Below are positions 44,891 through 56,544 of a stretch of DNA of 58,239 nucleotides, piece after piece. The notes under the pieces were generated by a model. The model was not told where the DNA came from. It searched no databases and was given only the letters and a program-made list of their open reading frames with translations. How positions within the stretch are numbered: position 1 is the first letter of the stretch; the number at the start of each line of letters is the position of its first letter. Made by a program: the position numbers and the translations under genes. Source of the DNA: Bacteroidota bacterium (GTDB taxonomy: Bacteria; Bacteroidota; Bacteroidia; Bacteroidales; Prolixibacteraceae); NCBI GenBank assembly GCA_030684645.1, contig JAUXUF010000060.1, positions 1-58,239 of the forward strand. The letters are read 5' to 3'.

Positions 44891-45325
44891 TCAGCTTGTT
44901 AAAATCTTCTGCATACAGGTTCGTTCCTTATCAGAGAGTGAATCCATTTCGTCAAGCGCATGTTGAATTTTGGTTTTAAAGTTCCAGCATGTCATTTGGC
45001 GCAACGATAGACGTCGGCCAAATTCGTAGGATGAAATATCCTCTTTGCCTTTGCAAACCTTGTAAGCGATATAAAAAGCCTTGCTGACAGGGAATTTAAC
45101 GCCATGGAATATCGTTCCGTTGATAGCAGTTTCTTTGGACTTACATTTGGTACATCGGCGCGAGAATGGTTCCTGTCCCGGACAAGAGTTGGTATTTCCA
45201 CATTTCTTACAGACAAAACCATCAGCCCATTTTATTCCAGCCAAAAATTCAAGGCACTTTTCATCGCTTTGGAACATTTCCTCAAGCTGCTCAGGACTTA
45301 GTCTAGTGCTAAAAACTGGATTCAT
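44891..45325 (-). CDS. IS1595-type zinc-ribbon transposase N-terminal domain protein
   Basis: From the ATG at 45325 the protein is 144 aa. It contains a zinc ribbon FVCKKCGNTNSC...FSRRCTKCKSKETAINGTIFHGVKFPVSKAFYIAYKV, the N-terminal domain of IS1595-family transposases, followed by a helix-turn-helix-like segment. The DDE catalytic domain of about 170 aa is missing. It may be a truncated transposase or a stand-alone DNA-binding protein. A TACATTTG -7 box (45351-45344) lies 19 bases upstream of this start and supports it over the in-frame ATG at 45367. Confidence 0.8.
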   Translation of the reverse strand: MNPVFSTRLSPEQLEEMFQSDEKCLEFLAGIKWADGFVCKKCGNTNSCPGQEPFSRRCTKCKSKETAINGTIFHGVKFPVSKAFYIAYKVCKGKEDISSYEFGRRLSLRQMTCWNFKTKIQHALDEMDSLSDKERTCMQKILTS

Positions 45326-45343
45326 AATCAATTTTTTCTGTGG

Positions 45344-45421
45344 CAAATGTAAATAAATTAGTGTCACTAAAAAGATTTAAGTGTCACTAATGCGATTTAA
45401 TCTTTTCTTTTATTATTTTTG
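45344..45421. promoter_or_regulatory. Divergent promoter region with tandem palindromic operators
   Basis: TACATTTG (minus, 45351-45344) faces left and TATTTTTG (plus, 45414-45421) faces right. Between them lie two 20-bp direct repeats, GTGTCACTAAnnnGATTTAA, at 45361-45380 and 45381-45400. The first repeat extends to a perfect palindrome TTAGTGTCACTAA (45358-45370). The repeats are spaced by 20 bp, about two helical turns, as expected for two regulator dimers on one face of DNA. The sites could control both the zinc-ribbon gene and the sulfur cluster. Confidence 0.75.
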
Positions 45422-45447: not shown

Positions 45448-45693
45448 ATGGAAAATAATTGTGAAGTTAAACCAAGACCAGGAACAATCAAAGAGTTTTT
45501 TAAATCGTGGTATTTCTGGAGACCATTTTTATCAGTTACAATCGGAGCCCTAGCCGGATTCTCATATTATTATTTTGTTGGCTGTACTTCAGGAACTTGT
45601 GCAATTACAAGCAGTCCGTATATGAGTACATTTTGGGGTGGCATGATGGGCTTTTTTGTAGTGAATAGTCCTTGTGCCAGGGGTAGATGTTAA
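45448..45693 (+). CDS. DUF6132-like small membrane protein
   Basis: This 81-aa protein has the DUF6132 pattern: FWRPFLSVTIGALAGFSYYYFVGCTSGTCAITSSPYMSTFWGGMMGFFVV, with two membrane helices and the GCTSGTCAITS loop. The C-terminal NSPCARGRC adds further cysteines. DUF6132 proteins often neighbour sulfur-handling genes in Bacteroidota, but have no proven function. It is followed, without a gap and in the same frame, by a truncated thioredoxin. Name given from memory. Confidence 0.75.
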   Translation: MENNCEVKPRPGTIKEFFKSWYFWRPFLSVTIGALAGFSYYYFVGCTSGTCAITSSPYMSTFWGGMMGFFVVNSPCARGRC

Positions 45694-45960
45694 ATTCACA
45701 TTGACTTTTATGCCAGCTGGTGCGGTCCATGCAGACAACTTTCACCCCGGGTGGAAGAAATTGCAAAGGAATATGCAGGGAAAATCATCGTTTACAAAGT
45801 TGATACCGATGCAGAACAATTACTTTCGCAGAGTCTGGGAATCACAAGTTTGCCAACATTGTTGTTTATACCTGTAAAAGGTCAGCCTCATGCAACTATG
45901 GGTGCGGTTCCTATGGAAACCCTTGTAAAAACGATCAATGAAGTTTTATTGGTGAAATAA
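45694..45960 (+). pseudogene. N-terminally truncated thioredoxin in frame with DUF6132
   Basis: Immediately after the DUF6132 TAA the same frame reads HIDFYASWCGPCRQLSPRVE then EIAKEYAGKIIVYKVDTDAE and GITSLPTLLFIPV, an active-site WCGPC thioredoxin domain with the cis-Pro (LP). The usual 25-30 residues before FYAxWC are absent and no standard start codon precedes the motif; the first ATG in frame is downstream at 45751. Either a deletion removed the 5' end, or expression needs readthrough of TAA or a non-standard start. The remaining sequence is otherwise intact. Confidence 0.8.
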
Positions 45961-45998
45961 GTTCATATTTCCCAGACAAAATAGGTTATCAGAGTGTT

Positions 45999-46595
45999 CT
46001 AGCAACCTCCGCCTGAAGATGTTTTTTTCTTAACAGGTATTATTGCCTGGGATTTTTTATTTTCAGATTTTGTTTCTGAAACTATGGCAAGCGCAGGTTT
46101 AATCCGAATCGCAGCAGTATCCAGAACCATCTTTTCTGTCGATGATAAGGCTGTTTCTTTGAATTCAACTGATGGGGTTAATCCGCCTTTTAGGATTTTC
46201 AGGTTTTTATATCCCAGCTGCTGCAAAAGTAACCAAGGTGCAGTAGCTTGTAATTCATCACTTCCATAGAGAACAGCCTCTTTTCCGTTATTTAGAAGCT
46301 GGTCGTAAACTTCAATCGCTTCGTCATCAAGCAAATTACGCAGCGGAATATTGATTGCATTTTCGGGATGTCCCTGTGCGAATAATTCGGAAGTCCGGAT
46401 ATCTATGAGTTGTTTCCCACCAATGTCTTTTACTGCAACCAGCATGGACTGATCGTTCATTAGTTTGAAGGCCTGGTCAGCACCAAGCTGATATTCGAGT
46501 GGTTTTGGCCTGAAAATGAATGCTAAAAACACAATGATGACAGCTAATCCAAGTAAGCTCAGCCAGGGTTTATTTGATTCTATAAAACGGTTCAT
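45999..46595 (-). CDS. Rhodanese-like protein without active-site Cys, C-terminal GGGC
   Basis: This 198-aa protein has an N-terminal anchor helix (LSLLGLAVIIVFLAFIF), a rhodanese-like fold (KQLIDIRTSELFAQGHPENAINIPLRNLL), and an active-site loop VLYGSDELQA where the catalytic Cys is replaced by Gly/Ser. A Lys-rich linker leads to the end SSGGGC. It is paralogous to the next gene upstream (46634-47260). The conserved C-terminal Cys, on a flexible tail, might carry sulfane sulfur in place of the lost catalytic residue. That function is an inference. Confidence 0.85.
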   Translation of the reverse strand: MNRFIESNKPWLSLLGLAVIIVFLAFIFRPKPLEYQLGADQAFKLMNDQSMLVAVKDIGGKQLIDIRTSELFAQGHPENAINIPLRNLLDDEAIEVYDQLLNNGKEAVLYGSDELQATAPWLLLQQLGYKNLKILKGGLTPSVEFKETALSSTEKMVLDTAAIRIKPALAIVSETKSENKKSQAIIPVKKKTSSGGGC

Positions 46596-46633
46596 AGTTG
46601 GATGTTTTGAATGATTCGTTAATGAGGATTAAA

Positions 46634-47260
46634 TTAGCAACCACCGCCTGATGAAGATTTAGGAGCTTTACGAACGACTGTGATTTTTACCGGAGTCTTC
46701 TCGGTGGCAGTTTTTTCAGTTGTTTGTCCGGCGCCTGTAAAATACTGGCGGGCAGCTTTTCTGAAATTAACCAGGTCGAACTCTGCAGACGAAGCAGTGG
46801 CAGCAACATCTGTTCCCATAACGATGGTATTATACCACTCGTTCAAACCGCCTTTCATGATGTAAAGCCTGCTATAGTTAACATAGCGGGCACAAAGCAG
46901 CCATGCTTTTTCTGAGGCAAGGTCTGAATTGGCATACAATACGATATCCTTTCCGAGCTGTTTTAACAATTCAGAATTTGAGTCAGAAAGAATTGATTCA
47001 GGTTGAATATTTATGGCGCCGGGTAAGGCGAATGCCTTGAACTGATCAGCCGGACGAAGGTCGATGAGTAAAAGGGTCGGATCGTTTTCTATGATTCGTT
47101 TCGAAACCAAATCAGTGGTCAAAAACCTGGATTTCTCAGCCAGGGCTGATAGCAGAACTTTCGGATCAGTTTCCGTTTTATTTGTTTTCTTTGGAAGTAT
47201 AACGAGTCCCAAGGCTAAAACAACGAGGAGGATAGAAAGTATGGTATATTTTCTTTGCAT
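46634..47260 (-). CDS. Second rhodanese-like protein without active-site Cys, C-terminal GGGC
   Basis: This 208-aa protein has an N-terminal helix (ILSILLVVLALGLVIL), the fold motif LLLIDLRPADQFKAFALPGAINIQPESIL and a loop IVLYANSDLASEKAW without Cys. It ends KSSSGGGC after a Lys/Thr-rich linker. It lies 12 bp from the YeeE/YedE half-gene and 38 bp before its paralogue, all on the minus strand, so it is in the psr operon. A shared role with the paralogue in periplasmic sulfur handling is likely but unproven. Confidence 0.85.
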   Translation of the reverse strand: MQRKYTILSILLVVLALGLVILPKKTNKTETDPKVLLSALAEKSRFLTTDLVSKRIIENDPTLLLIDLRPADQFKAFALPGAINIQPESILSDSNSELLKQLGKDIVLYANSDLASEKAWLLCARYVNYSRLYIMKGGLNEWYNTIVMGTDVAATASSAEFDLVNFRKAARQYFTGAGQTTEKTATEKTPVKITVVRKAPKSSSGGGC

Positions 47261-47272
47261 GATTTTTAAAAC

Positions 47273-47866
47273 TTAATATTCAACTTTTTTGACTTTGCGT
47301 TGCACCCAAGCGGCTCCGTAAAACATGCCAACGGCAACGATCACCAGGAATAAGGTAAAAAGTTGGGCTGAAATACCCAAAGCGTCATTAATCATTTTTG
47401 GTCCCTGTGATCCGCTGTAATACATTTTTTCCCAAAACGGAAAGCTCTCGGAGAAGAGAAATACACCGATAAACATTCCCCCAAAAAATACCATACCGTC
47501 AATTCGCCCAATAGCAGCAGCACACAAGCTGGTTCCGGGGCAGAATCCCCCCATTGAAAAACCAATTCCCATTATGATTCCGCCCACAATGGCAGAAGTC
47601 ATAAAAGTAGGCTGGATGTATAACAGTGAAAAATTTACCAATCCGAGGTAATCGAGATACAACAGCCCGATTGAGGCAGTTATGGCAGCGGTAAAAAAGA
47701 CTTTCACCACTACAAAGTCGTACCCAAAAAAGGTACCGATAATTTTGCGCGAAGATGAGAAACCCGACGACTCCAACGCAAAGCCAAATGCAGCGCCGAG
47801 AAAAACGGCAATTATATTGTCCCACGCTTGTGGAATAAATCCTGATTGAATTAATGGTCCGATCAT
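47273..47866 (-). CDS. YeeE/YedE half-size transporter subunit (C-terminal type)
   Basis: From the ATG at 47866 this protein is 197 aa, with about five helices. It contains the YeeE/YedE motif FSMGGFCPGTSLCAAAIGR with the substrate-path Cys pair. An earlier start at 47944 overlaps the previous gene. Full TsuA/YeeE proteins are about 330-400 aa; here two half proteins (this and the next) together make the transporter, as in other Bacteroidota. TsuA imports thiosulfate; YeeE/YedE proteins act on sulfur compounds. Substrate here is inferred from neighbours. Confidence 0.88.
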   Translation of the reverse strand: MIGPLIQSGFIPQAWDNIIAVFLGAAFGFALESSGFSSSRKIIGTFFGYDFVVVKVFFTAAITASIGLLYLDYLGLVNFSLLYIQPTFMTSAIVGGIIMGIGFSMGGFCPGTSLCAAAIGRIDGMVFFGGMFIGVFLFSESFPFWEKMYYSGSQGPKMINDALGISAQLFTLFLVIVAVGMFYGAAWVQRKVKKVEY

Positions 47867-47885
47867 ATTTTTTTGCTTGAAGAGT

Positions 47886-48413
47886 TTAAATCCAGTTTTT
47901 GCGTAAAATCCATGCAACAACAAAGGCGGTTCCGAAGATGGCAACCATGGTAATGTAGCCGCCCAGCGATAAAACAGCCATTCCGCTCAAAGCTGCTCCG
48001 CTGGTACAACCACGGGCAAGCTGCGATCCGAAGCCGAAAACGAGTCCGCCAGCCAGGGCGAATATCAACCGGCGACGCGAAGTAATCTTTGGAGAATGTT
48101 CTACCTTAAAATTCAGGCGGTTAAAAAGTATCCCGGAAAACAGGGCTCCGGCCAGGACACCAAGAACTTCATAGATCAGCCAGTTATTCAAAGGTTTTTT
48201 ATCGCCACCGGCAAACTGAGAATAGTAAGCCGAGTTTTCAACATGCTTTGGCGCTACCGTATTTACGGTTGCGGCTACCGTGTTTTTCACTGCACCGCTT
48301 GCACCAAGTCCCCGGCCCGACAGGTAAAAGGAAAGCATAAGCACTACCCCCAGTAAAACTCCACCTAAATAAGGGTTGAGGTAGAACGATCCATCGTTTT
48401 TTATTGTCTTCAT
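47886..48413 (-). CDS. YeeE/YedE half-size transporter subunit (N-terminal type)
   Basis: This 175-aa protein has about four helices and the motif GFGSQLARGCTSGAALSGMAVLSLGGYI, with the conserved Cys in RGCTSG. The N-terminus (NPYLGGVLLGVVLMLSFYLSGRGLGASGA) is also typical of the family. It is 19 bp upstream of the other half. The two halves probably assemble into one thiosulfate- or sulfide-like transporter. Confidence 0.88.
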   Translation of the reverse strand: MKTIKNDGSFYLNPYLGGVLLGVVLMLSFYLSGRGLGASGAVKNTVAATVNTVAPKHVENSAYYSQFAGGDKKPLNNWLIYEVLGVLAGALFSGILFNRLNFKVEHSPKITSRRRLIFALAGGLVFGFGSQLARGCTSGAALSGMAVLSLGGYITMVAIFGTAFVVAWILRKNWI

Positions 48414-48417
48414 TTTA

Positions 48418-48508
48418 GTTGTGTTATCGTTTTTAATATCTGTTACGGGTTTCGGGATGCGCGTTACGGGTTATCTCGCAACACGTATCTCGTAACTCGC
48501 AACCCGCA
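48418..48508. repeat. GTTACGGGT-type repeat between psrC and YeeE/YedE genes
   Basis: The gap contains TTACGGGTTTCGGG, GCGTTACGGGTTATCTCGCA and, in the opposite sense, CTCGTAACTCGCAACCCGC, which can pair with one another. It resembles a dispersed Bacteroidota repeat and would form a structured RNA in the middle of the psr operon. Confidence 0.6.
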
Positions 48509-49450
48509 TCAGTAAAGGTAACGTGTAATCTGTCCGGCTTCAACCATCAGGAACCTGAAAACCAATCCACCAATCAGCACCAATATGGCCGGAATATAAA
48601 TAGGAACTTTGAATCCGTTCAGTTCAAGAATTTCGAGTACAGCAGGGAATATCAGACCGAGCATAACCACGAAGGCAAAAAACGGAGCAGTGAATTTTCC
48701 GCCCAGGAAGAGGTTTGCTGCGTCAATCTGTACTTCAGGACCGGCCAGAAAACCCATGAACAGGTGTATGATAAAAAACAGCTCAATGATGATGAGCAGG
48801 ATATCGATACGTCCCATGATTTTTCGTTCCTTATGATCTTTACTCATCATGATGATCGTTGCCGCACCGGTTGACATTCCGGAGACCAGAAACAATGGCC
48901 CCAGAATCGCTGTGTTCCAAAGCGGCCGGGCATTGAAAGCGGAAAGTAGAATTCCGGTATAAATACCCAGAATAACCGCATAGATAGCCATCGGCCAGGC
49001 AATGATTTTCCGGTTTCTGATTACCCAGGCTTCAAAAGTGTAAAGGAACTTGAATTTCCAATCCCATTTGGGAAATAGCTCCCTGACATAACTGGCTGCC
49101 CAGATAATTGAAATCGGTGTCATGATCATTAATACCCAGGCGCCCCACCCCATTGGCGATTCAAGGCGAATGGTAGTATAAAGCTGCCAGAAATAGAGTT
49201 TGTGTTTCAGATCCAGAAAAAGCATGAACAAACCGAAAATCAGGACAAAAGGCACAATCATCGGCGCTTTTTTGACAGTTGAAGACATTTTTTGTTCTTT
49301 GCCCAGGATGGTAAATACCCCGGCAAAAAAGAGGATTCCGGCGGCAAGTCCGCCCAGAAAAAGATAGATCGGAATCTGCCAGTGCCAGATATTCAAATAA
49401 GGGTCGATGTTCGGGATATTACGTCCGCTGACAAACAATTCTTCTTTCAT
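48509..49450 (-). CDS. Polysulfide/thiosulfate reductase membrane subunit (NrfD/PsrC type)
   Basis: From the ATG at 49450 the protein is 313 aa, with about eight membrane helices. It starts NIDPYLNIWHWQIPIYLFLGGLAAGILFFAG, the NrfD/PsrC opening, and contains LESPMGWGAWVLMIMTPISI, also typical. This subunit anchors the MoCo/Fe-S subunits and exchanges electrons with menaquinone. An upstream start at 49471 is possible. It follows psrB across a gap filled by a long hairpin (49466-49535). Confidence 0.9.
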   Translation of the reverse strand: MKEELFVSGRNIPNIDPYLNIWHWQIPIYLFLGGLAAGILFFAGVFTILGKEQKMSSTVKKAPMIVPFVLIFGLFMLFLDLKHKLYFWQLYTTIRLESPMGWGAWVLMIMTPISIIWAASYVRELFPKWDWKFKFLYTFEAWVIRNRKIIAWPMAIYAVILGIYTGILLSAFNARPLWNTAILGPLFLVSGMSTGAATIIMMSKDHKERKIMGRIDILLIIIELFFIIHLFMGFLAGPEVQIDAANLFLGGKFTAPFFAFVVMLGLIFPAVLEILELNGFKVPIYIPAILVLIGGLVFRFLMVEAGQITRYLY

Positions 49451-49465
49451 CTGTTTGTAATTTAG

Positions 49466-49535
49466 AACCACATAGACACATAGAACACATAGCTTATGTT
49501 ATTTTTTTCTATGTGCACTATGTGTCTATGTGGTT
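49466..49535. repeat. Long hairpin repeat between psrB and psrC
   Basis: AACCACATAGACACATAG (49466-49483) pairs perfectly with CTATGTGTCTATGTGGTT (49518-49535), and the inner CACATAG/CTATGTG (49486-49492, 49509-49515) extends the stem past a 2x2 mismatch to a 16-base loop. The sequence is a known style of Bacteroidota dispersed palindrome. In this operon it may tune relative levels of the psr subunits. Confidence 0.9.
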
Positions 49536-49548
49536 GATTTTATTGGTT

Positions 49549-50082
49549 TTATACAAGATAAAATATTTGTGGTTTGGTTCCTGCTTCCGGAGCCAGTGAT
49601 TTGAATTTCCTGTTTTTCAGAATATTCACAATTTCAGAATTTGGATCGTCGAGGTCGCCAAAATGCATGCACCTGGTTGGGCACACGCTCACACAGGCAG
49701 GGTTTTTCCCTTCGCGAACACGATGAATGCAGAAAGTACATTTGTCAACATAGCCATCAGGATGTGAATAACGGGCATCGTACGGGCATGCCTCGATACA
49801 GGCTCCGCAGCCTATGCACTTGTTGTGTTCAACCAGAACGATCCCGCCGTCTTCAAAATGACTGGCGCCAGTGGGGCAACACCTCACGCAGGGAGAATTG
49901 TCACAATGGTTGCACCGTTCGGAGCGAAGTTCAATGCTCACATTCGGATAAGTTCCGTCAACGACTTCAACAACCCAATCGCGGCAGAAACCTACCGGTA
50001 CATTGTTTTCGGTCTGGCAGGCTACCACACAGTCGCTGCAGCCTACGCATTTCCGGGTATCAATTGCCATTGCATATCTCAT
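49549..50082 (-). CDS. 4Fe-4S ferredoxin-type electron-transfer subunit (PsrB type)
   Basis: This 177-aa protein has four Fe-S cluster motifs: CVGCSDCVVACQ, CNHCDNSPCVRCCP, CIGCGACIEACPYD and CTFCIHRVREGKNPACVSVCP. It passes electrons between the MoCo subunit and the NrfD-type anchor. Its start overlaps the end of psrA by four bases, so they are translationally coupled. Length and motifs are standard. Confidence 0.95.
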   Translation of the reverse strand: MRYAMAIDTRKCVGCSDCVVACQTENNVPVGFCRDWVVEVVDGTYPNVSIELRSERCNHCDNSPCVRCCPTGASHFEDGGIVLVEHNKCIGCGACIEACPYDARYSHPDGYVDKCTFCIHRVREGKNPACVSVCPTRCMHFGDLDDPNSEIVNILKNRKFKSLAPEAGTKPQIFYLV

Positions 50083-52322
50083 GATTTAGCCTCCTGTTTT
50101 GGTTTGTCTTTAATAAAGGTGACAAAGTTCCCGCGCATTCCTGTTCCCCCCATAATCGGATCAATCTTTATACTGGTTATTAATTCGGTATCGTTTACTC
50201 CACGGCCGAATGCATAAGTCAGCGGTTTATGGTGATGACCAAATCCATGAACGATGTAAACCGAATCCCATCTGATTCGCTCTGTTACACGCACTTTAAC
50301 TGAGAAATTAGAAATCACACCATCCTGATTCTTCAACCATACATACTGATCTTTTTTCAGTCCCCACAATTCAGCAACCTGTGGATTTACCCATACCGCA
50401 TTTTCGGGCATCAAAGCCACTAAATTCCGGTTGTTGGCCGTGCGGCTGAAGGTGTGCATCGGCGCCCGTCCGTATATCAGGCGGTAAAAACCGTCTTCGG
50501 GTTGAGCATGGGCCGTATATTTTGGCATCGGATCGAATCCGGCAGCTTCAAGTTCGTGGGCACACAGTTGTATTTTTCCTGAAGCGGTTTTGAATTGGTG
50601 ATCTGAACCGGGTTCAATGTAAACAGGGGTTTTACGTGCAAACTTTTTCACACCGATACGCTCCATTTCAGTAAGTGATAAACCTACCTGTTTCAGTTGC
50701 CAATCGAGCACTTCTTTGAGATCCGTATAGTTATAAAAAGCGCCCAGACCCAGACGTTCGCCGATCTGTTTCGAAATCCACCAGGCTGGTTTTGTTTCGT
50801 ACAGCGGTTCAACGGCTGGCATTCGCAATGCAAGAGTTGGTTCGCGGTGAGCTGTAGCACGCAAATCGTCGTACCGTTCCAGGTAAGTACATTCAGGCAA
50901 CACCACATCGGCAAAACCTGTAATTTCCATGGGCATGGTATCTACAACAACCAGTAAATCGAGCGATTGCATTGCTTTCATCAGTTGTTCCTTCAAAGGA
51001 ATTGAAACCACGAGGTTTGTACCTGAAACAATCCAACCTTTTATGATGTGTTCTTTTCCTTCTTCAGGAATCGAAGCTTCTATGATTGTATTTGTGACGG
51101 CTTCTTTTGCGAACTGATACCTTCCGTTAAGCGTATCCTGCCACGACCAGGCTGGCTTTGGGTATTCAGGATGAGGAAATTCAGGAATTTTAAAGCCTTC
51201 TTTAAAGAAAATTCCACCCCTGTTTCCCCATGAGCCCAATAAACCGTTCAAAATGGCCATAGCACGCGAACGTTGAACATCATCGCCGTACCACGAGGTA
51301 TGACGTCCGGGATGAATGATTACTGATGGCGCAGCATTTGCCATTTCACGGGCGGTATTGCGGATGAGTTCAGGTTTTAGGGTGGTAATACCGTAAGCCC
51401 ATTCAGGAGTATAATCTTTGACGTGTTCTTTCAGCTCATTGAAGCCTTCGGCATATTTGGCTACATATTCTTTATTGTAAATATCATCGTAAATAAGTAC
51501 GTGGATCCAGGCTAATAACAGCGCAATATCTGTTGAAGGTTTAATAGGCATCCAGTATTTCGATTTACTCGCGGCAGTTGACAGACGTGGATCAACGGTG
51601 ATGATCACGGCTCCTTTGTCGATCGCTTCCGACATTTCCTGAACCTGGCCATTGTGCATGTTCTCTCCGATATGCGACCCGATGAGGACCAGGCATCGCG
51701 TATCGCGGATATCTGTTACTTCGGGACTGCTAACCGATTCACCGAAAGTGAGGTCGAAACCGGTATCGCGCGGGCCGCGGCACTGAGCAAACGAAGGCGC
51801 TGCCACGTTGTTTGAACCGTATGCGTTCAAAAGATGCGTAAAATACTTGCCTGAAGAGCCGTGGTTAAACAAAGCCATACTTTCCGGGCCATGCTTTTCA
51901 GCAATTTCCTTCATCTTTTTGGCAATGAAATCGAGCGCTTCGTCCCAACTGGCTTCGCGGTAAGTTTGTTCACCGTTTTTTGAAACGCGGATTAAAGGTG
52001 TTTTGAGTCGATCGGGATCAGAAAACATACCGACTCCGCCAGTTCCGCGCGGACATAAACGTCCGTTACATTGCGGGTCGTCGTTGTTTCCGATGATTTT
52101 CTGAATTTGCCCATCTTCGGTTACATAGTCCCATCCGGCGCATTTCCAAAAACAAACTTCACAATAGGTGGGAAACTTCTTCCAAATCGGAGACGATTTT
52201 ATGCCTCCTGAAAGTTTTTGGGAAGAAGAAGATCCAACAGCCCATTTCACCACACCGCCGGTGATAGCTGTAGCTCCTATACCTATTGAACTAATTTTTA
52301 TAAAATTCCTCCTCGTATGCAT
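50079..52322 (-). CDS. Molybdopterin oxidoreductase catalytic subunit (PsrA/PhsA type)
   Basis: This 747-aa protein starts with a Tat signal (TRRNFIK, then a hydrophobic segment), so it is exported folded. The N-terminal 4Fe-4S ligands are YCEVCFWKCAGW and CNGRLCPRGTGG. The bis-MGD domains follow, with the candidate Mo ligand Cys in SFAQCRGPRDTGFDLTFG. The family reduces polysulfide, thiosulfate or tetrathionate in the periplasm. Substrate cannot be read from sequence, but the neighbouring YeeE/YedE and rhodanese-like genes point to a sulfur compound. It heads the operon psrA-psrB-psrC. Confidence 0.93.
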   Translation of the reverse strand: MHTRRNFIKISSIGIGATAITGGVVKWAVGSSSSQKLSGGIKSSPIWKKFPTYCEVCFWKCAGWDYVTEDGQIQKIIGNNDDPQCNGRLCPRGTGGVGMFSDPDRLKTPLIRVSKNGEQTYREASWDEALDFIAKKMKEIAEKHGPESMALFNHGSSGKYFTHLLNAYGSNNVAAPSFAQCRGPRDTGFDLTFGESVSSPEVTDIRDTRCLVLIGSHIGENMHNGQVQEMSEAIDKGAVIITVDPRLSTAASKSKYWMPIKPSTDIALLLAWIHVLIYDDIYNKEYVAKYAEGFNELKEHVKDYTPEWAYGITTLKPELIRNTAREMANAAPSVIIHPGRHTSWYGDDVQRSRAMAILNGLLGSWGNRGGIFFKEGFKIPEFPHPEYPKPAWSWQDTLNGRYQFAKEAVTNTIIEASIPEEGKEHIIKGWIVSGTNLVVSIPLKEQLMKAMQSLDLLVVVDTMPMEITGFADVVLPECTYLERYDDLRATAHREPTLALRMPAVEPLYETKPAWWISKQIGERLGLGAFYNYTDLKEVLDWQLKQVGLSLTEMERIGVKKFARKTPVYIEPGSDHQFKTASGKIQLCAHELEAAGFDPMPKYTAHAQPEDGFYRLIYGRAPMHTFSRTANNRNLVALMPENAVWVNPQVAELWGLKKDQYVWLKNQDGVISNFSVKVRVTERIRWDSVYIVHGFGHHHKPLTYAFGRGVNDTELITSIKIDPIMGGTGMRGNFVTFIKDKPKQEAKS

Positions 52323-52390
52323 TCTATTGATATTTAGAGTTTTGTGGAATAACTGAGTGTAGAGTTTTGGGGTTCTGACTTAGTTTCCCA

Positions 52391-52421
52391 CAAAAGTAAG
52401 GTAAACAGTGAGCTTAGCAAA
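52391..52421 (-). promoter_or_regulatory. Promoter of psrA operon
   Basis: On the minus strand TTTG (52421-52418) is followed after exactly 19 bases by TACTTTTG (52398-52391). This is the best -33/-7 pair in the window and lies 69 bases upstream of the psrA ATG. Confidence 0.7.
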
Positions 52422-52575
52422 GAACTCCAGCTGTAAATATCCAGATAATTATATATGTGTTTTTAAATATCAGTAAATCAATTATTTATGCAATGTTTGA
52501 TGTTGTCACTTTACTTTATGACGCCAGACATAAAAAAAACTGATCTATAGCAGTTATAGGGAAAAACTGTTCCCG

Positions 52576-52604
52576 TTTGTTGAGTTATAAAAGTTGTAGA
52601 TTTG
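52576..52604 (+). promoter_or_regulatory. Candidate promoter of Rieske gene
   Basis: TTTG (52576-52579) and TAGATTTG (52597-52604) are separated by 17 bases. The ATG at 52626 lies 21 bases beyond, which also argues against the start at 52602 inside the promoter. Confidence 0.55.
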
Positions 52605-52625
52605 ACTCGCCGAATGGTATTCATT

Positions 52626-53054
52626 ATGGGAAAACAAAAACCGATATCACGGAATTCATTTCTTCGAATTGTTACTGGCTTGATACTTGGCCTGGTAGCA
52701 TGGATCTGGTACAATCTGACCAACTTTCAGACTGAACGGGAGAACAGTTTGGAATTCAGGCACAATCAGGATGTTCCGATGGGAATCAGCTACTTTGAAA
52801 AGTACTATCTCTATCGGACCGATCGTTCAGTCAGAGCATTTTTAACCCAATGTACGCATGCCGGCTGCCGGATCGGGATGAGTACGGGAGCCGTACTTCA
52901 ATGCAATTGTCACGGTTCGCAATTTGACGCCGAAACGGGAAAACCACTGAAAGGACCTGCTATAAAACCCTTGCAAGAAATTGAATGCCGGTTTGATAAG
53001 GAAAATGGGCAATGGATGGTGAGCTTGAGGCCGATGGGTGGTAAATTATCGTAA
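52626..53054 (+). CDS. Rieske 2Fe-2S protein with N-terminal membrane anchor
   Basis: From the ATG at 52626 this 142-aa protein has one N-terminal membrane helix (FLRIVTGLILGLVAWIWYNL) and a C-terminal Rieske domain: CTHAGCRIG and CNCHGSQFD give the two Cys and two His cluster ligands. Rieske proteins take electrons from quinol in bc complexes. The gene is transcribed divergently from psrA and in the same direction as the cytochrome b/multiheme fusion at 53842, with a transposase between them. The two probably form one complex. Confidence 0.92.
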   Translation: MGKQKPISRNSFLRIVTGLILGLVAWIWYNLTNFQTERENSLEFRHNQDVPMGISYFEKYYLYRTDRSVRAFLTQCTHAGCRIGMSTGAVLQCNCHGSQFDAETGKPLKGPAIKPLQEIECRFDKENGQWMVSLRPMGGKLS

Positions 53055-53197
53055 TCATAGGACTTCATTTCATTACATCCTATGCTGTTACATGTCGGGG
53101 CGTTGCCCCTTTCTATTGCCGTTATTTGAACGTTGAATAAGAGTCATTCTGAAAGGACGGTCTGTAAAAGCACAGGGTAGAGTGAAACGGAACCCTA
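53052..53197. repeat. Left direct-repeat element flanking the Y1 transposase
   Basis: The block begins AATCATAGGACTTCATTTCA, continues CTATGCTGTTACATGTCGGG and CGTTGCCCC, and ends with the related TAAAAGCACAGGGT...GGAACCCT. The same order is repeated at 53693-53811. Each copy contains small palindromes (CATAGGAC/GTCCTATG-type, GGGGCGTTGCCCC). Confidence 0.85.
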
Positions 53198-53226
53198 TAA
53201 GAATATTCACCATTAAAATCAATAAT

Positions 53227-53667
53227 ATGCCACAGTCATTAGCCAAAGTAAACGTACATATTGTATTTACAACGAAGTATGGTCAGGAATTTATTAAGGA
53301 CGAAATCCGTGATGAGCTTCATTCATATGTAATTGGTGTTTTGTCGAATTTGGGTTCCTATACCTATGAAATCTATGCAAATCCCGATCATATTCATATT
53401 CTTTGTACGCTCCCCAGAACAATTACCATGGCAGATTTAGTTTCGAAAATAAAAACTTCTTCATCAAAATGGATAAAACATTTGGGTATTCCTGATTTTT
53501 ATTGGCAGGATGGATATGGTATTTTTTCAGTGAGTGCTTCAAAAATTGCAGCGGTCAAAAAATACATTTTGAGTCAACCACAACATCATAAAGAAGTGGA
53601 TTACAAAGATGAATTCCGACTATTTCTGAAAGAAAATGGAATTGAGTTTGATGAACGTTATGTTTGA
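53227..53667 (+). CDS. REP-associated/IS200-like tyrosine transposase
   Basis: From the ATG at 53227 this 146-aa protein starts MPQSLAKVNVHIVFTTKYGQ, has HUH motif PDHIHILCTLP and ends FRLFLKENGIEFDERYV. The nucleophilic Tyr would be in the later helix (VKKYILSQPQHH). It is flanked by two long direct-repeat elements, as for RAYTs that mobilise REP-like sequences. It interrupts the Rieske-cytochrome pair, so it is a late insertion or a regulatory linker. Confidence 0.9.
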   Translation: MPQSLAKVNVHIVFTTKYGQEFIKDEIRDELHSYVIGVLSNLGSYTYEIYANPDHIHILCTLPRTITMADLVSKIKTSSSKWIKHLGIPDFYWQDGYGIFSVSASKIAAVKKYILSQPQHHKEVDYKDEFRLFLKENGIEFDERYV

Positions 53668-53692
53668 GATTAAATCTACTAGTTCAATGATT

Positions 53693-53811
53693 TAATCATA
53701 GGACTCCATTTCATTACGTCCTATGCTGTTACATGTCGGGGCGTTGCCCCTTTTGAAGTCCTGAAAGGACGTTCTGTAAAAGCACAGGGTGAAATGAAAT
53801 GTAACCCTGTG
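53693..53811. repeat. Right direct-repeat element flanking the Y1 transposase
   Basis: This copy has TAATCATAGGACTCCATTTC, GTCGGGGCGTTGCCCC, GTCCTGAAAGGAC and AGCACAGGGTGAAATG, matching the left copy in order and orientation, with differences in the central part. Confidence 0.85.
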
Positions 53812-53841
53812 GAATAGAAATAAAAAAACAATATACACGGA

Positions 53842-56544
53842 ATGCACCTGCAAAAGCTAAAAAAGTTCCTTCAATTTGATACTGCGGGATGGATCGCAAG
53901 TTCATCGCTGCTTCTTTGTGCAATCAGCGGAGTGTTGCTGGTCATTCCTTATGATTTTACACGGGCACACCAATCAATTTCTGAACTGTTGTTATTTAAT
54001 CCTTCCGGAACTATGGTCCGGAATTTTCATTACTGGAGCGCCCAAATGTTTTTTGTTTTCAGCATTCTACATGTGTACGATCATCTCTATAAATCAACGG
54101 AGACCAACATCAGGAACAAGCGTACCTGGCTTATTCTGTGTCTGGCGCTTGTTTTTCTGGGCTATGAAATGATTTCAGGATTTATCCTGAAAGGCGATGC
54201 CGCCGGCATTCAGGCACAACGGATATTAGCTTCATTGTTCGAGTCGGTTCCTTTTATTGGAAAACTGCTGAGTTCTGCATTTATCGGAATTGGTGACAAT
54301 ATCCAGGTAGTTTATATTCAGCATGTAGCCACCGGAACAATTCTGCTGTTCATTGCCGTTTACGATCATGTAAAAACCATCTGGGCCAAACGAAAATCAT
54401 GGATCATCGTATTTCTGATCATTTTAGTAATTAGCCTGTTTTTCAGAGCTCCATTGGGTTTAACCGGTAACAGTCAGGTCAAAGGTCCCTGGTTTTTTGT
54501 CGGAATTCAGGAAATGCTTCACCTGACCAGTCGCCCGGTTTTCATCATCATACTTGTGCTCATCTTACTTGTTGTAATCTATTTCCTTCCCCAGTTCAGG
54601 AAAAAAACGCGCAGCCTCGTCAAGCTTATTTTGTTGATTGCAGGAATTCTTTACCTGATCATGACTTTAGTGGCGCTACTTTTCAGGGGCGAAAACTGGG
54701 AGTGGAAATCATGGAGTGAAAACAGGCTTTCAGGAGAGCAACTCCTGATTTTTGATCCGGTTGACTTATTCAGTTCCGGCAAACCAATAATAATTCCTGA
54801 AAATCAGAAAAGGGAGGGCTGCCTGGTTTGTCACAGTTCGGTAAAAGGATTATCTGAATCGCACAATCCTTCAGTGATGGGTTGTGTGGCCTGCCACAAA
54901 GGCGATCCGTATTCAAGCAACAAATCATTGGCACACCGCAATCTGATCCTGGTACCTGGCAACTTTTCGAATGTTAGCCAGACCTGTGGCGCCCAAAACT
55001 GCCATCCGGACATTGCCAACCGGATGCAGAAATCGCTCATGACCACTCAAAGCGGAATCATTGCTGTCGATAAATTTGTTTTTGGCGAAACAACTTCGCT
55101 GAACGATACCTTTCACATCAAAAATCTTGGTCATTCAGCAGCCGACACTCACTTGCGAAACCTATGTGCGGGCTGTCACCTGGGTATGGAAAAAATCAAA
55201 ACCGGAAATGCCGAATGGCTCGAACGGGGAGGAGGCTGCAATGCCTGCCACCTGCACTACAGCGAGCAGGCCACCGAAAGCATGAAACGGATGCAGACTG
55301 GAAATGCGGTACTCACGGGCGAGATTCATCCAACTATCGATATTCAGGTTTCGAACGACCGCTGTCTGAGCTGCCACAGCCGGTCAGGCCGGATTTCGCT
55401 CAGTTACGAAGGATGGAACGAAACCAGTGAAGGAACAGAACTGAATAGTTTAGCCAAATCAAAGGTTTTGCCGGATAAGCGGGTGCTTGAATTTGTTCAG
55501 GCTGACATTCACCATCAGCGGGGAATGGCCTGTATCGACTGCCATTCTTCGTACGACCTGATGGGTGACGGGAAGCACCATGCCCACAAGGAAGATGCGG
55601 TGAGTGTGCAGTGCAGGGATTGCCATCCGACCGAAAAAGTAAATGCGATAACCATTTCTTCTCTTCCGGATAAAGAATCTCAAATGATTGCCTGGCTCCG
55701 GAAAGCTGATCCAAAAATCCGGTTGGTACTTACATCCAAAAATAATCAGCCATTGCTGAACACCCGGATCGATTCTCTGGATCGGATTTTCCTGACCGGC
55801 AAACTGGATGGGAAAGATCATCTGTCAAAACCTGCAGCTCCGGTGTGTACCAAAGGAAAGGGTCATAGTCGCCTGAGTTGCGAAGCCTGCCACACGGCCT
55901 GGGTGCCGCAGTGCATCGGCTGCCACAATTCGTACGAGAAAGAAACCTCCGGATTTGATATGTTGAATGGCAAAACGACCAAAAGTACCTGGGTTGAATT
56001 TGCAGGAAAGAACCTGGCTGAACCGCCTGTTTTGGGTATCAATGCTGCCACCAATCAGGTGGTAACCGCTATGCCGGGCATGGTGATGAGTATCGATCAG
56101 GAGTCGTTTGCGAAAGGCAAAGGGCAGCGTTTTCACCGCCTGTATGCGCCAACTTCGGGGCACACCACCCAACGCGTTGGCCGAAGCTGCAAATCGTGCC
56201 ACAACGATCCGCTGGCTATCGGATTTGGGCGTGGTGACCTGATTTATCGGGTTTCACGAAAAACAGGAAGCTGGACTTTTGCGCCCCGCTTTACCCTCAA
56301 CGAATACGACCAGTTACCTGAAGATGCCTGGACCGGATTTCTGAAAGAAGCAAAAGCACCCTATTCTACCCGTACCACCCTTCGGCCATTTTCGGTGACA
56401 GAGCAAAAACGAATTCTTCAGGTTGGCAGCTGCCTAAGCTGCCATGACGAAAAATCAAAAGTGATGGACCAGGCTTTGGAAGATTACCAGAAAATACTAT
56501 CGAGACGGAGTAAAAAGTGTGTTAGTGAACAAGGTGAACAATGA
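53842..56544 (+). CDS. Cytochrome b fused to a 12-heme cytochrome c region
   Basis: This 900-aa protein is a fusion. Residues 1-~300 form a cytochrome b: H63 and H77 (H-x13-H) and H161 and H176 (H-x14-H) are the four axial ligands for two b hemes, followed by the GPWFFVGIQEML segment and three more helices (about seven in all). From ~330 the polypeptide lies on the periplasmic side and has eleven CxxCH sites plus one CxxxxCH (CGAQNCH), so twelve c hemes. Candidate functions are quinol oxidation with electron export, or the reverse. A Rieske gene lies upstream. Diheme b/multiheme c fusions are known (for example the CbcL type), but I cannot place this one in a family. Confidence 0.9.
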   Translation: MHLQKLKKFLQFDTAGWIASSSLLLCAISGVLLVIPYDFTRAHQSISELLLFNPSGTMVRNFHYWSAQMFFVFSILHVYDHLYKSTETNIRNKRTWLILCLALVFLGYEMISGFILKGDAAGIQAQRILASLFESVPFIGKLLSSAFIGIGDNIQVVYIQHVATGTILLFIAVYDHVKTIWAKRKSWIIVFLIILVISLFFRAPLGLTGNSQVKGPWFFVGIQEMLHLTSRPVFIIILVLILLVVIYFLPQFRKKTRSLVKLILLIAGILYLIMTLVALLFRGENWEWKSWSENRLSGEQLLIFDPVDLFSSGKPIIIPENQKREGCLVCHSSVKGLSESHNPSVMGCVACHKGDPYSSNKSLAHRNLILVPGNFSNVSQTCGAQNCHPDIANRMQKSLMTTQSGIIAVDKFVFGETTSLNDTFHIKNLGHSAADTHLRNLCAGCHLGMEKIKTGNAEWLERGGGCNACHLHYSEQATESMKRMQTGNAVLTGEIHPTIDIQVSNDRCLSCHSRSGRISLSYEGWNETSEGTELNSLAKSKVLPDKRVLEFVQADIHHQRGMACIDCHSSYDLMGDGKHHAHKEDAVSVQCRDCHPTEKVNAITISSLPDKESQMIAWLRKADPKIRLVLTSKNNQPLLNTRIDSLDRIFLTGKLDGKDHLSKPAAPVCTKGKGHSRLSCEACHTAWVPQCIGCHNSYEKETSGFDMLNGKTTKSTWVEFAGKNLAEPPVLGINAATNQVVTAMPGMVMSIDQESFAKGKGQRFHRLYAPTSGHTTQRVGRSCKSCHNDPLAIGFGRGDLIYRVSRKTGSWTFAPRFTLNEYDQLPEDAWTGFLKEAKAPYSTRTTLRPFSVTEQKRILQVGSCLSCHDEKSKVMDQALEDYQKILSRRSKKCVSEQGEQ

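Follow-up and report, generated by a model that had tools for sequence, protein, structure and literature searches.

Accounts of sulfur respiration usually show polysulfide that diffuses freely, or Sud-like rhodaneses; in Wolinella, the periplasmic rhodanese Sud supplies sulfur to the polysulfide reductase Psr. Here we describe a probable sulfur-respiration cluster on a Bacteroidota contig of 58,239 bases (C367, part of a 5.2 Mb assembly), which is called the window below. The cluster encodes a PsrABC-type reductase, a YeeE/YedE transporter split into two halves, and a pair of membrane-anchored rhodanese-fold proteins, RhA and RhB, which carry another residue in place of the catalytic cysteine and end in a cysteine preceded by glycines (the GGC tail). 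A Rieske gene and a fused cytochrome gene, CytBM, lie beside it. Psr, split YeeE proteins, periplasmic rhodaneses and Ext cytochromes have each been described individually, and the unusual part of this cluster is its system of tails, which are conserved among relatives and matched within a cluster.

Several described systems resemble parts of the locus. Rhodaneses as suppliers of Psr have precedent in haloarchaea (PMC5437934) and Desulfurivibrio (PMC12142623). Such systems share with this one a molybdenum (Mo) enzyme, a 4Fe-4S protein and an NrfD protein, and their operon includes or adjoins genes for rhodanese-fold helpers located outside the cytoplasm. They differ in that here RhA, and mostly RhB, lacks the catalytic cysteine and bears a matched C-terminal GGC arm, and in that the YeeE halves belong to the operon. 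In SoxY, a cysteine within a C-terminal GGCGG motif binds the sulfur substrate (PMC6067878). SoxYZ is likewise a periplasmic carrier with a glycine-flanked C-terminal cysteine, whereas the proteins described here have a rhodanese fold, a membrane anchor, a reductase as neighbor and one to three carriers with matched tails. PmpA and PmpB are split YeeE halves whose single cysteines correspond to two that TsuA needs (PMC11582611). Like them, YE1 and YE2 of the window are half-length proteins representing the C- and N-terminal halves, with a conserved cysteine in each, but here the halves are encoded within a respiratory operon, and other Bacteroidota have YE2 as a fusion with a GGC rhodanese. 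Finally, one gene cluster of Geobacter encodes the 12-heme cytochrome ExtM, the Rieske protein ExtO, the cytochrome b ExtP and the rhodanese-like ExtH (PMC5877670). The ExtHIJKLMNOPQS system thus resembles the window in its 12-heme, Rieske, cytochrome b and ExtQ components and in a nearby rhodanese; it differs in that here the b, Q and M parts are fused, PsrABC is the neighbor, and the scores fall under the equivalog cut-offs.

An initial annotation of the window, made from its letters alone, had named PsrABC, the YeeE/YedE halves, two GGGC rhodaneses, a Rieske gene and a cytochrome fusion, and every one of these parts is present. It singled out the GGGC proteins without recognizing their tails as the most telling part. 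It also proposed periplasmic sulfur chemistry on the quinone pool, which fits the family assignments given below, and knew of no described system with exactly this set. Searches of open-access literature gave no description of the gene set, of GGC-tailed rhodaneses or of matched tails; the Rieske/cytochrome b/12-heme part resembles ExtM/O/P/Q, and the split YeeE corresponds to PmpA/PmpB. The genes of the minus-strand run are, in the order of transcription:

PsrA, 50079..52322, minus strand: molybdopterin catalytic subunit of the Psr/Phs type, predicted export by twin-arginine translocation (Tat)
PsrB, 49549..50082, minus strand: 4Fe-4S electron-transfer subunit
PsrC, 48509..49471, minus strand: NrfD-type quinol-reacting membrane subunit
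YE1, 47886..48413, minus strand: YeeE/YedE C-terminal half, PmpA-like, cysteine in GCTSG
YE2, 47273..47866, minus strand: YeeE/YedE N-terminal half, PmpB-like, cysteine in FCPGT
RhA, 46634..47260, minus strand: membrane-anchored rhodanese fold, catalytic Cys replaced by Ala, tail end SSSGGGC
RhB, 45999..46595, minus strand: membrane-anchored rhodanese fold, catalytic Cys replaced by Gly, tail end TSSGGGC

Rhodanese-fold proteins and their GGC tails

Of the 247 genomes examined from the order, 116 gave a match to RhA at E 0.001, a count that includes weak matches; of 395 from the phylum, 56 gave an aligned match at E 1e-10. We mapped 98 loci, cited where needed by our own numbers: the window end, 17 near-relative loci and 80 retrieved regions. 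The 17, closest by the cytochrome gene, are records of metagenome-assembled genomes, 10 of them Prolixibacteraceae, and form no independent sample. The 80 regions were taken one per genome, best matches first, from the 116 matching genomes, and the entry of the window's own genome among them is its second cluster. From the 56 phylum genomes, 20 were picked by hand, mostly better matches. All loci were selected by a rhodanese or cytochrome match, and the frequencies below hold for such loci rather than for all genomes. Open reading frames (ORFs) of at least 70 residues were called with a simple script that removed overlapping ORFs.

RhA and RhB match the rhodanese family PF00581 at 53 and 55 bits, and a Foldseek search with RhA had many rhodanese structures among its matches (best E 5e-6), which places RhA within the rhodanese fold. 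In AlphaFold models, residues 51-170 of RhA reach a predicted local distance difference test (pLDDT) score of 72-94 per block, and scores fall below 50 in residues 178-208 of RhA and in residues 150-159 and 162-198 of RhB. The models suggest that each protein comprises a rhodanese core followed by a disordered tail. A hydrophobic N-terminal stretch is present in 80 of 80 RhA sequences, which suggests an anchored, periplasmic protein. The catalytic-loop cysteine is absent from all 80 (Ser in 66), and at this position of the active-site loop, where a catalytic or Sud-type rhodanese has cysteine, the window proteins carry Ala (RhA) and Gly (RhB). Among 59 RhB sequences, the cysteine is absent from 50 and present in 8, and one fragment lacks the loop. 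The RhB alignment omits L038, in which a stop interrupts the gene. Some relatives encode a third protein, RhC: the products of the 22 such genes have two domains and 335-389 residues; by our own rule, 18 of them begin with a lipobox-like sequence, and all 22 have a CxxG-type loop in at least one domain.

We counted tails in 81 clusters with both Psr and YeeE genes, leaving out copies truncated at the edge of a contig. Of 79 complete first rhodaneses, 78 have G[GS]C at the C-terminus with no more than a single residue after it; L059 (EGC) is the one that does not. The second rhodanese has such an end in 53 of 58; its exceptions are L059 (EGC), the front fragment of L038 and three proteins ending in ECPDLN or NCPDLN (in L119, L124 and L128), two of which retain a cysteine at the catalytic position. 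Third rhodaneses carry such an end in 17 of 23 cases, or 16 of 22 without the L038 fragment, since one piece of that split gene was counted as a second gene without GGC and the other as a third gene with it. By contrast, only 1 of 1252 other ORFs at the same loci ends this way, and it is itself a YE2-rhodanese fusion. The 152 rhodaneses that end in C or Cx have GG before the cysteine in 147 cases, EG in 2, EV in 2 and GS in 1; judged by these counts, the tail cysteine is more constant than the glycines. A net positive charge over the final 25 residues is seen in 75 of 79 RhA and 49 of 54 RhB sequences.

A scan of the DNA of the window's own genome for the GGGC-stop pattern gave five places. 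Two are the rhodanese genes, two end in TGG, which is no stop, and one is not at the end of an ORF of at least 40 residues, so that no ORF with a GGGC-stop end was found in that genome beyond RhA and RhB, ends with one extra residue not having been searched genome-wide. We considered the tail as a general C-terminal sorting signal and rejected this, because only 1 of 1252 other ORFs has it, the GGGC-stop ends found in the window's own genome are those of RhA and RhB, and tails differ from one cluster to another within a genome.

Tails of one cluster are alike. Over the 12 residues before GxC, RhA and RhB are 53% identical within a genome and 22% between genomes (n=53), a value reached in 0 of 10,000 shuffles, which were made without regard to phylogeny. 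With one genome per family (n=28; family labels entered by hand), the corresponding values are 61% and 23%, and over the last 8 residues they are 73% and 27% (0 of 20,000 shuffles). The cores in this thinned set are 28% identical within and 26% between genomes. The cluster partner is the best or tied tail match in 23 of 28 thinned loci over 12 residues and in 24 of 28 over 8, and the residue following the tail cysteine is the same in RhA and RhB in 51 of 53 loci.

Different clusters of one genome have unlike tails. In the window's own genome, the Psr cluster has SSGGGC and a YeeE cluster without Psr has LDGGCE; in G167, the corresponding ends are KEAKSGGGC and KKLDGGCG. Tails likewise differ in G072, between a cluster without Psr and a cluster with a b561-type cytochrome, and in G014, between two YeeE clusters, where the contig stops short of any visible Psr gene. 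Unlike tails for two clusters in one genome suggest that tails follow the cluster and not the genome.

Operon conservation and the Rieske/cytochrome module

The order PsrA-B-C-YE1-YE2-Rh is found in 78 of the 98 mapped loci, in 5 of which PsrB is masked by an overlapping ORF; judging by the maps, most of the remaining 20 are cut off where a contig stops or have YeeE genes and lack Psr. The best solved relative of PsrA is 2vpw, PsrA of T. thermophilus, whose entry is labelled thiosulfate reductase; it matches with 661 bits over residues 4-738, and the next structure reaches 178 bits. The N-terminal RRNFIK of PsrA is presumably a Tat signal motif. PsrB matches Fer4_11 at 85 bits, with the ArrB, NrfC and TtrB models below their cut-offs, and PsrC matches NrfD at 151 bits. 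With a full-length PsrA/PhsA relative, an iron-sulfur protein and an NrfD protein in one operon, the three correspond to a complex iron-sulfur molybdoenzyme of the Psr/Phs type.

YE1 covers positions 177-309 of PF04143, the C-terminal half, and YE2 covers positions 13-157, the N-terminal half. The YE1 motif GC[TA]SG is kept in 89 of 89 scored homologues and the YE2 cysteine motif (FCPGT in the window) in 90 of 90, and both halves thus have the conserved cysteine of a YeeE/YedE transporter.

Divergent from PsrA, the plus strand of the window carries the Rieske/cytochrome module and an inserted element:

Rieske, 52602..53054, plus strand: membrane-anchored 2Fe-2S protein, ExtO-like role
IS200-type insertion, 53052..53808, plus strand: transposase ORF 53182-53667 between repeated flanks (PF01797, 80 bits)
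CytBM, 53842..56544, plus strand: diheme cytochrome b, ExtQ-like segment, then 12-heme ExtM-like domain

The Rieske protein matches PF00355 at 46 bits, and its C-x-H-x-G-C and C-x-C-H-G motifs are kept in 29 of 29 scored homologues. CytBM, a protein of 900 residues, matches Cytochrome_B at 41 bits. In an alignment of the window and 10 of the 17 near-relative loci, 11 CxxCH motifs plus one CX4CH and the His pairs H63/H77 and H161/H176 are invariant in 11 of 11 sequences. The spacing of the pairs is that of cytochrome b6, as in a bc/b6f-type quinol oxidase. CytBM matches ExtM at 262 bits over residues 319-886 (cut-off 800), and its front matches ExtP at 52 bits (cut-off 290) and ExtQ at 33 bits (cut-off 150). 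Although every score is below its equivalog cut-off, the combination of a 12-heme ExtM-like domain, a cytochrome b and a Rieske protein makes the pair look like a compact Ext complex, which would place such a complex beside a sulfur reductase, outside Geobacter.

The cytochrome fusion was found in 17 of the 247 order genomes, all 17 of which have a rhodanese match (Fisher p = 1.3e-6, uncorrected for phylogeny). In 16 of the 17, the two lie within about 11 kb on one contig, and in G067 they are on different contigs; a proposed refutation, that the Rieske and cytochrome genes sit elsewhere in most relatives, was thus not borne out. The two genes are near each other in most mapped relatives. At least three placements relative to the operon occur. 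Most mapped loci have the module running divergently from PsrA. In L057 and L061, two loci of one genus, it lies downstream of the operon and in the same orientation. Elsewhere in the phylum, in L193, L196 and L201, a homologous cytochrome gene, truncated where the retrieved stretch stops, lies upstream in the same orientation, and a MerR-like gene separates it from the operon. L183 and L187 have a 12-heme protein lacking the cytochrome b part beside PsrA (ExtM 258 bits in L183), and L037 has an ExtI-like porin (43 bits, cut-off 150) and two rhodaneses near the module. Linkage kept through rearrangement suggests a functional tie of module and operon, and chance clustering was rejected on the grounds of the kept order and this linkage. 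The initial annotation had treated the genes as one unit; they do belong together, but the module is optional and the set is not fixed, the fusion being present in 17 of the 116 rhodanese-matching genomes.

A candidate sulfur carrier and its alternatives

The most plausible role for a dead rhodanese that has a terminal cysteine on a flexible arm and is encoded next to a sulfur reductase is that of a covalent sulfur carrier. We consider it moderately probable that this Bacteroidota cluster uses catalytically dead rhodaneses with SoxY-like swinging arms to supply its own PsrABC. PsrABC would draw electrons from menaquinol and reduce periplasmic sulfane sulfur, either polysulfide or the outer sulfur of thiosulfate, which would be passed on as a persulfide via the C-terminal cysteine of RhA and RhB. 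The rhodanese fold would serve as a membrane-anchored scaffold that has lost catalysis, and the flexible, mostly basic GGC tail would be the swinging arm, comparable to that of SoxY in the Sox pathway; a basic tail would suit anionic polysulfide or thiosulfate. RhC, which is catalytically equipped and usually has the same tail, might load the arms in those relatives that encode it. That tails match within a cluster and differ from one cluster to the next points to a single docking partner for each cluster, in the simplest case its terminal reductase. YE1 and YE2 would swap sulfur with the cytoplasm, and the Rieske/cytochrome b/12-heme complex would be an optional second quinol-oxidizing module of the Ext type and a second outlet of the quinone pool. 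The sequences themselves establish which genes are present, their order and conservation, the missing catalytic cysteine of RhA, the conserved and matched tails and the linkage of the optional module; the persulfide chemistry, the docking partner, the substrate and the direction of electrons are inferred. By analogy, the rhodanese proteins may work like SoxY, with which they share a glycine-flanked C-terminal cysteine on a predicted flexible tail, without being members of that family: only PF00581 was found in them in Pfam at E 0.01, and no SoxY-type domain. Set against the usual picture of diffusing polysulfide or Sud-like rhodaneses, the sequences point to a covalent tail hand-over that is matched across paralogues with diverged cores and common to two unrelated terminal enzymes. 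A function would thereby be suggested for a widespread kind of "rhodanese-like" gene, and the clusters would offer a natural system for the co-evolution of a carrier tail and its enzyme.

Several observations weigh against this carrier reading. The loss of the catalytic cysteine does not appear strict in RhB: of the 8 sequences with cysteine in the catalytic column, 6 also have the GGC tail, and 3 of the other 50 carry a cysteine one place earlier. The GGC end is missing from 6 third genes and from three RhB proteins, which have ECPDLN or NCPDLN instead. Cores are slightly more alike within genomes than between them, a difference reached in 13 of 20,000 shuffles; the shuffle tests ignore phylogeny; and in the full set, the partner from the same cluster is the best or tied tail match in only 33 of 53 loci. 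Identical tail residues share a codon somewhat more often than expected, and in three loci the tails have the look of copies. The RhA model kept was the best of five that differ widely (mean pLDDT 44-73). PsrA scores 484 bits against the NCBIfam PhsA model, under the cut-off of 694, which leaves both thiosulfate and polysulfide as candidate substrates. Of the 116 rhodanese-matching genomes, only 17 have the optional module, and in 99 the fusion was not matched.

The tails could instead be incidental. On one account, the locus is an ordinary Psr cluster with Sud-type helpers in which the rhodanese domain binds polysulfide without a covalent bond or through a different residue, the part played by the GGC tail being minor or structural; rhodaneses are encoded beside psrA or co-transcribed with it in Desulfurivibrio and Halodesulfurarchaeum (PMC12142623; PMC5437934). 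We regard this as unlikely, because the catalytic cysteine of RhA is gone in 80 of 80 sequences while the tail cysteine is retained and the tails are matched within clusters. The matching itself could reflect mere gene conversion or recent duplication, with no functional meaning. In line with this, nearly all tail codons are alike in L077 (14 of 15), L083 (11 of 12) and L119 (15 of 16), and 294 identical tail residues share a codon where 255.3 are expected from codon usage (in L119, L124 and L128 the second tail compared is that of RhC instead of RhB). However, this excess is small against 564 identical residues, and the cores are nearly as unlike within genomes as between them. We rejected recent gene conversion as the main cause of the matching on the small codon excess, and an account by duplication or conversion alone seems very unlikely. 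The modest excess, with three copied-looking loci, suggests that most tail matching is held at the protein level. It is highly improbable that the tail acts not as a redox arm but as a signal for processing, anchoring or thiocarboxylate formation, in the manner of a ThiS-like GG end or of an anchor to lipid or to the cell surface. A glycine-rich end with the cysteine last or next to last does resemble some sulfur-carrier processing signals, but the cysteine is more constant than the glycines, with EGC ends in L059, L193, L196, L197, L200 and L201, and the N-terminal anchor is expected to place the tail in the periplasm, where ATP-dependent adenylation would be unexpected. Moreover, a general enzyme would not need tails that vary between clusters of one genome, and GGGC-stop ends were confined to RhA and RhB in the own-genome scan, within the limit on extra-residue ends given above.

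A further alternative concerns the electron path rather than the tails. The initial annotation had proposed that PsrC and the Rieske/cytochrome b/12-heme complex form one branched or reversible path. For example, sulfide or sulfane would be oxidized through Psr into the quinone pool, and the electrons would leave it via the multiheme cytochrome. In favor of such a path are the module near the operon in 16 of the 17 genomes having it, the same-strand arrangements downstream and upstream of the operon, the 12-heme protein without cytochrome b beside PsrA, and sulfide:quinone reductase, DsrC-like or octaheme genes adjoining some clusters. The module was not found in 99 of the 116 rhodanese-matching genomes, and electron direction is not readable from sequence; we find a single branched or reversible path somewhat unlikely.

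Other terminal enzymes and neighboring genes

In each of the 20 loci from across the phylum, one or more rhodaneses carry a tail end of this kind, which is EGC in 5. Nine are Psr clusters, one is a short contig, and in 10 an octaheme cytochrome replaces Psr. These 10 all encode a YE2-rhodanese fusion ending in GGC, and 9 encode a b561-type cytochrome. The octaheme protein scores 568 bits (L188) and 558 bits (L072) against TIGR04315 (cut-off 375), and the others were found with a profile built in this analysis. The octaheme tetrathionate reductase family thus occurs with the same YeeE/GGC-rhodanese kit in other Bacteroidota, the difference being a terminal enzyme that is a multiheme cytochrome with a b561-type partner and not PsrABC. 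L207 and L208 are octaheme-type clusters with three carriers each, whose tails are of another flavor and alike within the cluster, loosely in L207 and closely in L208. We hold it possible, if somewhat doubtful, that the GGC tails of dead-rhodanese or YeeE-fused carriers form a general address system in Bacteroidota sulfur respiration, each tail being enzyme-specific, taking up sulfane sulfur on its last cysteine and docking only at its own terminal enzyme; one carrier kit would then serve unrelated reductases, namely a Mo enzyme, an octaheme cytochrome and the partner of clusters like that on C214.

The latter contig (L053), from the window's own genome, holds the second YE1-YE2-rhodanese cluster, without Psr, facing a two-domain rhodanese, and a similar layout is seen in L131, L132, L203 and L204. 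The octaheme kit was observed in L188-L192, L194, L195, L198, L199, L202 and L206-L208; the octaheme gene was not seen in the L206 stretch, and the b561-type cytochrome was not found in L191. Among seven additional regions, L209 was left unused and L205 lacks a YeeE cluster. Directly upstream of PsrA, L193 (2339-2782) encodes a MerR-type regulator with a Cys-rich C-terminal part, possibly a sulfane-sulfur sensor; similar proteins occur in L196, L197, L200 and L201, the family having been tested in L193 only. A type III sulfide:quinone reductase (selenoprotein subtype model, 650 bits), a DUF1641 gene and a DsrC-like gene adjoin the cluster in L058, and L105, L112 and L127 have the same set by sequence grouping, with families identified in L058 only.

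Between Rieske and CytBM, the IS200-type transposase is flanked by REP-like repeats of 61 nt (97%) and 48 nt (88%), and the element is a later insertion outside the machine; L041 has a closely similar transposase, recognized by eye, between the same two genes. At the left end of the cluster, positions 45448-45957 comprise a DUF6132 gene and a thioredoxin gene truncated at its 5' end (Pfam names). The latter (45700-45957) starts right after the DUF6132 stop and is missing about 84 residues compared with L038, which may be a true deletion or an assembly fault. Farther left, a short zinc-ribbon ORF of the IS1595 type (44891-45367), perhaps domesticated, has a relative adjoining the Psr cluster in L038, L042, L054 and L055.

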